This document shows, one piece after another, positions 5,460 through 24,485 of a stretch of DNA of 64,000 nucleotides. Where the stretch lies: NCBI GenBank assembly GCA_019359415.1, contig JAHHHH010000007.1, forward strand, positions 1 through 64,000. Direction: 5' to 3'. The notes beneath the pieces were generated by a model. That model was not told where the DNA came from. It did not search any database and saw only the letters and a list, made by a program, of their open reading frames with translations. The DNA comes from Iphinoe sp. HA4291-MV1. GTDB taxonomy: Bacteria; Cyanobacteriota; Cyanobacteriia; Cyanobacteriales; Nostocaceae. Numbering within the stretch: position 1 is the stretch's first letter; each line of letters starts with the position of its first letter. A program made the position numbers and the translations under genes.

Positions 5460-5605
5460 CCTGTTCATGTAGAGTGAGAAGAGGCGTATCAAGCTTTATT
5501 CAAATATCTTTTCTAGAGAACAAATACACTCACGCGCCAAATCTATTTTGGTGCGTTTTATTTTCTGGGTGTATTTTTATCCTTCTATGTATGCGCTTTT
5601 TTTAT

Positions 5606-6403
5606 ATGCAAGGTGATTTTAGAAACAACAAAAAGAATTTCTTCAAGCTGCTAGCTGTATTTGCTGTGGTTTTGGTTATTGTTGCATGTTCTTCCCTTTT
5701 TTCTGAGAAAAAGTCTGCAGTATTTTTTGGGGATAGCATTACAGCAGGTAACGGTGTCAGTGTCACTGAACGCTGGTCATATCTAGTTGCTCAATCGGTA
5801 GGAATGAGGGAAATTAATGAAGGTATTAGTGCAACGGTTCTGCAAAATACTAGTCCTGTGTTAGCTGATAATGGTCGCGATCGCATAGCGCGCCTTGTGC
5901 CCGAGGCACTTCGTGCCTCCCCTGAATGGATTTCAGGGAGCCAGTCGGAGACTGGCTGGGCACATACAGGCGATCGCGTATATAACCTCACGAAATATTC
6001 TCCTCGCAAAATTTACATACTTTACGGGTTTAATGATCTTCGATATAACGGTGCTAAATTCAGTGTCGCCAACTTCGAAAACGACTTGCGAGAAATCCTT
6101 GCCATTCTTATAAATCAAGCCAGCGTTTCACCCAAAGATATCACTATTGGTTCTCCTCCATATATGGACCCAACTTATTATAGTAATTCTGATTTTGCTC
6201 CGTTTAATGCTGGTTCAATCGTCAAGCATCAAGCATATATTCAAGCTACACACAAAATTGCTCAAGAATATAAATGCAAGTGGGCTAATGTGTATCAGGC
6301 AATGATTGACAATGGCAGTAATCGATTGCTGCAATCAGACCATATCCATCCCAATATCCCTGGTCACTCTGTCATCGCTGACTCCATGCTCAATGCAAAT
6401 TGA
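5606..6403 (+). CDS. SGNH/GDSL-family hydrolase lipoprotein with an in-frame repeat
   Basis: Secreted esterase or lipase-like hydrolase of the SGNH fold. Visible blocks are the serine block FFGDSITAG, the asparagine block YGFNDLR and the Asp-His block SDHIHPN. From the ATG at 5606 the protein starts with a lysine-rich n-region, a hydrophobic core and the lipobox IVAC, giving a 27-residue lipoprotein signal; the frame stays open to 5474, but the longer form would bury the signal. Between the serine and asparagine blocks sits a 31-residue insertion encoded by a HIP1-bounded repeat (5877-5977). The substrate is unknown. No strong ribosome-binding site marks either start. Confidence 0.75.
   Translation: MQGDFRNNKKNFFKLLAVFAVVLVIVACSSLFSEKKSAVFFGDSITAGNGVSVTERWSYLVAQSVGMREINEGISATVLQNTSPVLADNGRDRIARLVPEALRASPEWISGSQSETGWAHTGDRVYNLTKYSPRKIYILYGFNDLRYNGAKFSVANFENDLREILAILINQASVSPKDITIGSPPYMDPTYYSNSDFAPFNAGSIVKHQAYIQATHKIAQEYKCKWANVYQAMIDNGSNRLLQSDHIHPNIPGHSVIADSMLNAN
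5877..5977 (+). repeat. 93-bp cloverleaf repeat between two HIP1 octamers, read in frame
   Basis: GCGATCGC occurs at 5877-5884 and again exactly 93 bp later. Between them lies an outer stem TGTGCCC/GGGCACA enclosing three hairpins: GAGGCAC-TTC-GTGCCTC, CCCTGAA/TTCAGGG and CCAGTC-GGA-GACTGG. The insert reads as VPEALRASPE, then SGSQSETGWAHTGDR. A nearly identical element, read in the same frame, is at 11438-11538. Confidence 0.9.
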
Positions 6404-10912: not shown

Positions 10913-11662
10913 CTAACGACTACGGTAAGCAATGACAGCATAGAACGGATCTGCTCCTGTGACACCCATCCACTGTAGGAAATTGGGAAGAGTTGACTGA
11001 CGAGCAATCACCTCAACAGGTGTGAATCCTGGAACAGCGGAGAAATAACTTTTTACCAATTCCACTCTACTGGCTTCTGTACCCTCTCGCCACGCTTGAA
11101 TTGCCTTTTCAAAAAACATGCGGTTAGAAAAGCTGACAATTGCTACGCCATCGGGTTTGAGGATGCGGTGAATTTCTGAAAAAACCGCTTCTGGATATTG
11201 CAAATACTGTATTGAAACGCAATTGAGAACAGCATCAAAATCTTGGTCTTTGAGGGGTAGCTGAGGATTTTCGTTGAGATCTTGCACAAAGTAATGATTT
11301 AACTGAGGATTTTGTGCCAGTTCCTCTGCATTGAGTCCGTGTCCTTCAACATGGGCAAAAGATATCTCTTCTGGCAGATGCGATACCCAACTGCTCATCA
11401 TGTCTAAAATGCGGGTGTTGGGTTTGAGGCGCGCTATGCGATCGCCCGTATGTGCCCAGCCAGTCTCCGACTGGCTCCCTGAACTTCGTTCAGGGGAGGC
11501 ACGAAGTGCCTCGGGCACAGGGCGCGCTATGCGATCGCGATATAAGTCTGTCAGCTGTTGAATAAAACCTTCGTCCACATGAGTGACGAAGCGGGGATAT
11601 TCATAGAAGAGCTTGTCATCTGTACTATCTAGCTTAGTGCGTTCCTCTGGTTTCAGCGGCAT
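10913..11662 (-). CDS. class I SAM-dependent methyltransferase with an in-frame repeat
   Basis: Methyltransf_11-type domain. The first strand is RILDMMSSWVSHLP, where the usual GxGxG is replaced by a serine-rich turn; then come HVEGHGLNAEEL, FDAVLNCVSIQYL and the post-motif III HRILKPDGVAIVSF. The acceptor is unknown. Residues about 42-73 are a 31-residue insertion (VPEALRASPE, SGSQSETGWAHTGDR) encoded by a HIP1-bounded repeat; without it LTDLYRDR joins LKPNTRIL directly. The insertion sits before the SAM fold, where it might be tolerated. The frame is open throughout, so the gene may still be functional. Confidence 0.8.
   Translation of the reverse strand: MPLKPEERTKLDSTDDKLFYEYPRFVTHVDEGFIQQLTDLYRDRIARPVPEALRASPERSSGSQSETGWAHTGDRIARLKPNTRILDMMSSWVSHLPEEISFAHVEGHGLNAEELAQNPQLNHYFVQDLNENPQLPLKDQDFDAVLNCVSIQYLQYPEAVFSEIHRILKPDGVAIVSFSNRMFFEKAIQAWREGTEASRVELVKSYFSAVPGFTPVEVIARQSTLPNFLQWMGVTGADPFYAVIAYRSR
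11438..11538 (-). repeat. second 93-bp cloverleaf repeat between HIP1 octamers
   Basis: GCGATCGC at 11438-11445 and 11531-11538 are again exactly 93 bp apart. Read on the minus strand the insert matches the 5877 copy except for a handful of bases. The middle hairpin differs but still pairs (CCCTGAAC-GAA-GTTCAGGG here). A short extra ATAGCGCGC follows the second octamer. Confidence 0.9.
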
Positions 11663-11773
11663 AAGTGTCTTTTAAAAATAAGTTTTTCCAAAGTTTTGTC
11701 AATTTTGATTCCGTTTGACAGAAACAATTGATATACCACCATACGTATTCTAAAAAGAGACACAAAAATATTA

Positions 11774-23904: not shown

Positions 23905-24250
23905 ATGCCAGAAAACCCGCAAGACCAGAACACTCCCCTGACGCTGGAGAACTTTTGGAAGATTCTTGATTCCAAACTCGTTAGTTTAGGAACTCCTGCA
24001 GTTTTGGTTGGAGTAGCGCTTGATTTCGCACGCAAATCAGAATGGCAAAATGCTGGGCTTTGTGTGGTAGCAGCTGTTGCTGTTTGGTTTGTCATTAAGA
24101 TTTGTAACAAAATCGCTCCACGCATTGACAAATTACTGGACTGGATGTTGGACAATGCTGAAATTCTACTTCAGAATCTGTGGGCAAAGCTGACTTCTGA
24201 TTTTGAAGGCAAATATTATGAACGACTGAAGTTTGACTGTCGAGAGTGTC
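23905..24250 (+). pseudogene. N-terminal piece of a NACHT-type STAND protein
   Basis: The frame encodes a charged start, two hydrophobic segments (SLGTPAVLVGVALDF and CVVAAVAVWFVIKIC) and ends AKLTSDFEGKYYERLKFDCRE. From memory, this last block precedes the NACHT ATPase in cyanobacterial STAND proteins. Directly after it the sequence becomes the left end of an IscB-type element with GACCCCCGACTTGAAGTCGG. The matching C-terminal half of the same gene resumes after the element at about 24670. Confidence 0.65.
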
Positions 24251-24485
24251 AACGACCCCCGACTTGAAGTCGGGGGCTTCCAGCCAGAAGCCCTAGTTGA
24301 CCAGACTTAGTACTCCCTTGTACTACGTTCAGAGCAAGCGTTAAAGTTCCTACCTACGGATGCGTAGCTAGTCTGTAGCTCTAGAAAATCAGGATTAAAC
24401 ATCTGTAATGGGTTAAGGAAGTGTCCTGATTAAAGTACCGACTCTGAACATTGTCGAAGCTAACTTTACCCGAAAGGAGGGACTT
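24251..24485 (+). ncRNA. omega-RNA / HEARO-like region upstream of an iscB fragment
   Basis: About 235 bp without a frame lie between the NACHT fragment and the iscB start. The region begins with a strong hairpin (CCCCCGACTTGAAGTCGGGGG) and ends CCCGAAAGGAGGGACTT-ATG. HEARO/omega-RNAs lie just 5' of iscB, are of this size, and end in the ribosome-binding site. The class is assigned from position and length; I have not matched the structure model. Confidence 0.6.

Follow-up and report, generated by a model that had tools for sequence, protein, structure and literature searches.

A HIP1-flanked cloverleaf repeat read in frame within an SGNH hydrolase gene of Iphinoe sp. HA4291-MV1

The element in the window

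The window, that is, the whole stretch of DNA analysed, comprises 64,000 nucleotides of Iphinoe sp. HA4291-MV1 (contig JAHHHH010000007.1, positions 1 to 64,000). It holds a gene for an SGNH/GDSL hydrolase (5591..6403, plus strand, start chosen by eye), the protein of which matches PF13472 at 2.2e-17 and is read in frame through a cloverleaf element of the 93-bp type at 5877..5977 (plus strand). The element is marked out by empty sites (L061-L063), by DNA search and by a covariance model, and is flanked by HIP1, an octamer present in massive excess in the genomes of many cyanobacteria, where its role is unsettled. The window has 35 HIP1 octamers, about one per 1.8 kb, against 0.24 expected from shuffles. 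The two that bound the element, GCGATCGC at 5877..5884 and its counterpart at 5970..5977, start exactly 93 bp apart, as an earlier note on this DNA had stated; the unit is thus 93 bp with one HIP1 counted, and the cloverleaf between the octamers is 85 bp.

An outer stem TGTGCCC/GGGCACA holding three perfect hairpins had also been described, and positions and fold z-scores bear this out. The 5' arm of the stem lies at 5896..5902 and the 3' arm at 5958..5964, and between them stand hairpin 1 (GAGGCAC-TTC-GTGCCTC, 5903..5919), hairpin 2 (CCCTGAA-TGGAT-TTCAGGG, 5920..5938) and hairpin 3 (AGCCAGTC-GGA-GACTGGCT, 5939..5957), with perfect arms of 7, 7 and 8 bp, all on the plus strand and all recovered in an alignment of 13 copies as well as in the DNA fold. 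To these the DNA fold adds a mini-hairpin after the left HIP1, CGC-ATA-GCG (5882..5890, plus strand), which appears elsewhere in the family in the compensatory form GGC-TTC-GCC. Folded as RNA the element reaches -60.8 kcal/mol (z -6.9), and as single-stranded DNA about -39 kcal/mol for either strand (z -8.75 and -8.71), values equalled by none of 200 shuffles in each case. In the single-stranded DNA fold the outer halves of the octamers, GCGAT of the left and ATCGC of the right, pair with each other. Rfam gave no match at the element in the window, and none up to E 0.1 in six loci that hold copies.

DNA search revealed a second copy in the window, 95% identical and translated in the same reading frame (YRDRIARPVPEALRASPERSSGSQSETGWAHTGDRIAR), at 11438..11538 on the minus strand. 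Its host is a methyltransferase stop-to-stop ORF (10916..11671, minus strand), of which relatives at 87-88% identity are without the element. This copy (L002) has nine additional bases 3' of its right HIP1 that are absent from four relatives (L165, L152, L166, L167), as though the right end had received a copy of the left one.

Orthologues of the hydrolase gene

The earlier note had the element adding 31 codons, in frame, between the serine and asparagine blocks of the enzyme. The hydrolase ORF does continue through it without a break, and alignment places 31 residues (IARLVPEALRASPEWISGSQSETGWAHTGDR) between what we take to be the GDS and GFND blocks. The gene had no match at E 1e-10 in the seven other genomes of the genus; in an order-wide draw of 291 genomes, orthologues were found in three genomes of one genus belonging to another family. 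These proteins are 49-50% identical and align on both sides of the segment, at residues to 99 and from 132 onward, with NNGRDR-YQQ facing NGRDR-IARLVPEALRASPEWISGSQSETGWAHTGDR-VYN of the window, and their DNA at the insertion point reads GGTCGCGATCGCTATCAG, a single HIP1. The figure of 31 codons therefore stands for the unit between the HIP1 octamers but not for the net gap against the orthologues, which is 30 codons because one further codon differs in a diverged stretch just downstream.

Alignment with relatives had been proposed together with two outcomes that would tell against a mobile element, namely unrelated DNA at the same place or a segment as old as the SGNH family. Both were looked for in these relatives and neither was found, the segment being absent and the HIP1 single in all three orthologues, so the segment does not belong to the SGNH fold from of old. 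That it might do so has next to no probability: nothing in favour of this was found, it is refuted by the empty sites, and the same DNA occurs in unrelated genes. The plainest reading of these sequences is that a 93-bp unit would have joined an existing HIP1, leaving HIP1 on both sides. An AlphaFold model of the SGNH protein, built from four sequences, was set aside (mean pLDDT 54.9, with the blocks of the insert at about 24-33).

Size and range of the family

Judged from sequence, the element is a member of a dispersed family. DNA search placed copies at seven places in its own genome, 11438-11538 of the window among them, and, over 193 genomes of the taxonomic family, in each of the eight that belong to the genus and in two from a second genus. 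A covariance model over the genome copies, as the earlier note had suggested, was built from 13 copies and gave 4 to 30 matches per genome in all eight, opposite-strand repeats included; a second model (R2), from 34 longer copies, matched in three of three second-genus genomes, and the copies used in the two models share one fold. The working set of 86 copies takes the best strand per matching locus from 87 fetched loci scanned with the model (L017 gave no match), 82 of them from the genus, with its eight genomes, and 4 from the second genus; ten weaker matches of the first model lie outside it. At full sensitivity the second model matched in 17 of 40 family genomes, representing 16 of 39 genera with the genus itself included, so that the 3 of 195 genomes found in an order-wide draw under strict filters understate the range. 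In 14 hits viewed from beyond the two genera, the right end is mostly preserved, and some of the hits have degenerated.

Within the set, HIP1-to-HIP1 spacing is mostly 92-132 bp, with short forms of 50, 63 and 78. A CCTTGG-like type, which is a rough class, is mostly 95, 107 or 121 bp and has a left end two bases longer; it is without the triplet that follows the left HIP1 in other copies, where it varies (GTA, ATA, GAA, GGA, TTC and others). Set beside a classical MITE, which shares terminal inverted repeats with a parent transposon, the element has ends that pair with each other. By two end patterns, no autonomous form or parent transposon was found in the one genome scanned, the near-complete G003, in which all left-end matches except 1282145 and 1436372 were viewed and one unmatched right end lies inside an ankyrin-repeat gene. 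A mini-form with 50-bp spacing (L007), consisting of the outer arms and a single hairpin, was seen where an ORF for a DDE transposase (PF13358) ends.

HIP1 as the probable usual target

Empty sites were sought for 26 of the 86 copies by searching the eight genomes of the genus with the flanks joined through one HIP1; 14 of these sites were ORF sites chosen for read-through. For at least 20 of the 26, another genome matched straight through the junction and had no element there, between flanks up to 99% identical, while two (L069, L078) had another insert at the junction, one (L075) an unclean gap, and three (L004, L038, L077) no empty match among the matches listed for the eight genomes. Junctions were read base by base at 18 of the 20 (L072 and L073 were left out), and at 14 of the 18 at least one empty relative has an exact HIP1; a further junction (L107) has one mismatch (GCGATTGC), another (L103) a word with two mismatches, and at the last two (L006, L084) a HIP1-like word is absent from the empty relative viewed. 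In the copies themselves the left octamer is exact in 40 of 86 and reads GCGATGGC in 20, and the right is exact in 58; both ends are exact in 30 copies, a number that rises to 64 when one mismatch is allowed.

At the L069 and L078 sites, exactly 27 bp stand between GCG and ATCGC in other species. A dumbbell of the pattern GCGAT-AAGCC-nnn-GGCTT-G-ACGC-nnn-GCGT-ATCGC was accordingly counted at up to three mismatches and occurs 9 to 64 times per genome of the genus, against none for a reversed control; it does not occur in the 64-kb window. The 27-bp inserts fit the published description of SDR5, with which they are tentatively equated on that description. SDR5 is said to be 21-27 nt long and to belong with the small dispersed repeats of Nostoc treated by Elhai et al. 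2008. SDR5 reportedly inserts between HIP1 nucleotides 3 and 4 (PMC4390886). Insertion at that position also describes the cloverleaf at 14 of the 18 junctions and in the SGNH gene, and fails at two (L006, L084), with the exact base at which it enters ambiguous because HIP1 is duplicated. The earlier note knew of no equivalent linked to HIP1; as a general statement this is, given SDR5 and the 27-bp inserts at two of the same HIP1 sites, too strong. Since closely related species have the same HIP1 empty, with a 27-bp insert or with a cloverleaf, HIP1-directed insertion becomes directly testable.

HIP1 could alternatively act as a small recombination site, at which a circle with one HIP1 would join a chromosomal HIP1 to give two, and excision would leave one. 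The presence of one HIP1 without the element and two with it fits this, as do the different inserts at the same HIP1 between species and the end octamers of the orthologous copies L076 and L082, which differ jointly, with GCGATCGC at both ends of one and GCGTTCGC at both ends of the other. Eight bases are, however, short for homologous recombination, and the left octamer is often altered, and such recombination is held to be unlikely as the explanation. A cloverleaf was also observed at the same place of the same glycosidase gene in three species (L012, L074, L083) and in two subtypes, which by comparison of these copies is repeated insertion or replacement at one HIP1.

Copies within protein genes

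In-frame read-through, scored in ORFs that run 250 codons or more from stop to stop, was found for 23 of the 86 copies at 18 distinct sites, and the copies add peptides of 21-43 residues. Hosts with Pfam support include, besides the SGNH hydrolase and the methyltransferase, proteins of the alpha-amylase type, a protein kinase, an M16 peptidase, a phosphodiester glycosidase, a P450, amidohydrolases, a glycosyltransferase, a DUF3598 protein, a HAD protein, a solute-binding protein, a histidine kinase and a prephenate dehydrogenase; two host ORFs (L069, L089) gave no Pfam match. In six the insert falls within the Pfam-matched stretch: SGNH, M16 (L010), P450 (L036), solute-binding (L100), HAD (L099) and DUF3598 (L075).

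Spacing from HIP1 to HIP1 could be scored in 75 of the 86 copies, a HIP1-like word with at most two mismatches being required at both ends; the 11 unscored copies are L004, L005, L015, L023, L106, L111, L112, L120, L121, L122 and L123, of which L004 and L111 are through-reading. All 21 scoreable through-reading copies have a spacing divisible by three, compared with 24 of the 54 others (Fisher 2.4e-6), a test with some circularity in it, since reading through an insert all but requires an intact frame. Among the 30 copies with exact HIP1 at both ends, 14 are in this register, and none of the 19 copies of CCTTGG-like type lies in a through-ORF. At ten of ten ORF sites where the viewed empty relative is open, the frame stays open with the element in place (L002, L006, L036, L070, L089, L097, L099, L100, L103, L115); the share of harmless insertions is not derivable from these, because read-through was the ground on which the sites were selected. 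Insertion is not harmless in every case: three 107-bp copies interrupt genes whose counterparts in relatives are open (199, 715 and 376 codons), namely a PsiE-family gene (L080), a gene for a TIR/AAA protein (L081) and one for a histidine kinase (L096).

On a different account, the element would function as a structured RNA, or as a peptide module under selection. This is recommended by a decayed copy 5' of an acyl carrier protein gene, kept at one orthologous place in five genera, but the five acyl-carrier copies pair poorly, Rfam holds no match, and the three gene-interrupting copies speak against it. No single peptide is conserved, because the inserts are read in several frames and in both orientations. 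This account is given very little probability, and there is no need to suppose that the host protein gains from the insert.

The in-frame copies invite comparison with the palindromic elements of Rickettsia, for which we know of no HIP1 target and which the earlier note had put forward as the nearest parallel, aptly so as an analogy. Those are dispersed palindromic repeats of about 100-150 bp that often lie in frame inside unrelated protein genes (PMC10969869). Residence in frame in unrelated protein genes is likewise what the 23 copies at 18 sites display, while the cloverleaf differs in its phylum and in its flipping loops (see below), the two being compared by description only. The family is a case, in bacteria other than Rickettsia, of a mobile repeat that has many times over lengthened proteins, conserved enzymes included, by 21 to 43 residues.

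Conserved pairing and apparent exchange of hairpins

Stem sequence varies among copies and pairing is maintained. In the alignment of 13 copies, 97.6% of cells are paired, with two of five measures not clearly above shuffles (double changes, 60 of 500; further pair types, 500 of 500). For the 34 longer copies 95.2% of cells are paired, against 33-49% in slid controls, with double changes in 29 of 38 pairs (231 cells) and a covariation score of 0.504 against 0.159 when shuffled; of 1274 cells, 1196 are Watson-Crick, 17 are G-U and 61 are unpaired. The mini-hairpin by the left HIP1 also covaries (C-G in 21, G-C in 9, unpaired in 4). These counts are not independent events, because the copies are related and hairpins have apparently been exchanged as units.

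Loops were compared across 200 perfect hairpins, each 6 bp or longer, that the 86 copies supplied; these were grouped by inner stem, and groups of at least four were counted. A reverse-complement partner on the same stem exists for 129 of 160 loops, whereas a complement partner exists for 10 of 160 and a plain-reverse partner for 0 of 146. Flips of this kind are seen between orthologous copies with flanks 90-97% identical (L070/L079, L020/L025, L094/L109), and orthologous copies may also differ by whole hairpins (three in L075, one in L118). The flipping loops may be regarded as a record of hairpin DNA handling in the cell. A nested 24-bp insert of two small hairpins within a cloverleaf hairpin loop was further observed in L020/L025, L070/L079, L016, L027, L028, L029, L076 and L085, and is a difference between the orthologous copies of the first two pairs. 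Hairpin loops, and not HIP1 alone, thus seem to receive small dumbbells.

These data bear on two further accounts of how the element arises. The first is an RNA intermediate, in which a transcript would fold, be reverse transcribed and be joined at HIP1; Elhai et al. 2008 reportedly suggested an RNA intermediate for the SDR repeats, the fold is strong and conserved, and gene-borne copies occur in both orientations. G-U pairs are, however, the usual half-way step in the evolution of RNA helices and are nearly absent here, both DNA strands fold equally well, and whole loops found in both orientations point to DNA, so that a passage through RNA is considered unlikely. The second is local growth without transposition, a HIP1 hairpin expanding by template switching and its hairpins spreading by gene conversion. 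Double changes and flips can be obtained by hairpin-templated copying without transposition, some such copying is required for the loops to flip, and both the differences by whole hairpins between orthologues and the nested 24-bp inserts agree with it. Near-identical 93-bp units nevertheless stand at unrelated sites (L001/L002 at 95%, L010 at 92%), and whole units are present or absent between flanks up to 99% identical, which makes growth in place quite improbable as the origin of the family.

Proposed movement of the element and its relation to known repeats

The window element probably belongs to a dispersed DNA repeat that is non-autonomous and usually targets HIP1. Such a repeat would move, and be remodelled, as folded single-stranded DNA or as a cruciform, handling that we infer because both strands fold equally, G-U pairs are near absent and loops turn whole. 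A putative enzyme supplied in trans would join it into HIP1 at about GCG^ATCGC. Insertions that shift the frame of a gene would mostly be lost, and copies of a length divisible by three with an open frame would survive as additions of 21-43 residues at places where the protein tolerates them. Beyond this, and more tentatively, HIP1 might be where a whole guild of DNA elements built of hairpins, from dumbbells of 27 bp to cloverleaves of 132 bp, lands throughout the genome. Such elements would travel as folded single strands, exchange and invert their hairpins and add new peptides to proteins, and HIP1 would have a recombinational role; this wider reading is possible rather than probable.

SDR5 and the small dispersed repeats of Nostoc are like the cloverleaf in being HIP1-inserted, dispersed, hairpin-built and cyanobacterial. 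The cloverleaf differs in length, being 93-132 bp when intact and in a register of three as against a reported 21-27, in its outer stem with exchangeable hairpins, in its different ends and stem sequences, and in having many copies read as protein. REP/REPIN sequences with RAYT provide a further likeness, being short single-strand hairpins for which a Y1 transposase acting in trans is the probable agent of movement (PMC3733652); in contrast to REP, the cloverleaf has no fixed GTAG tag at the foot of a hairpin, and the triplet after its left HIP1 varies. The RU elements of enterobacteria are described as small mobile repeats within genes that carry open frames (PMC2759123), belong to another lineage and are likened to the cloverleaf by description only. 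A literature search over titles and the starts of abstracts, with thin coverage of subscription journals, gave no HIP1-linked cloverleaf and no HIP1-linked in-frame protein inserts, a weak negative. A HIP1-targeted mini-repeat is thus already known as a kind, and a large flipping cloverleaf with in-frame protein inserts looks new.

Other features

The decayed cloverleaf just upstream of the acyl carrier protein gene was seen at its one orthologous place in L205, L206, L209, L212 and L215, one from each of the five genera. In the surrounding loci (L217-L221), PF00550 was matched in L217 and L219, with genes for a beta-ketoacyl synthase and a transketolase beyond. This copy is old and retained, and has perhaps been taken over as a leader. 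Elsewhere in the window, a HEARO RNA (RF02033), the RNA of an HNH-endonuclease-linked element, lies at 24248-24469 on the plus strand (159 bits, E 9e-34).
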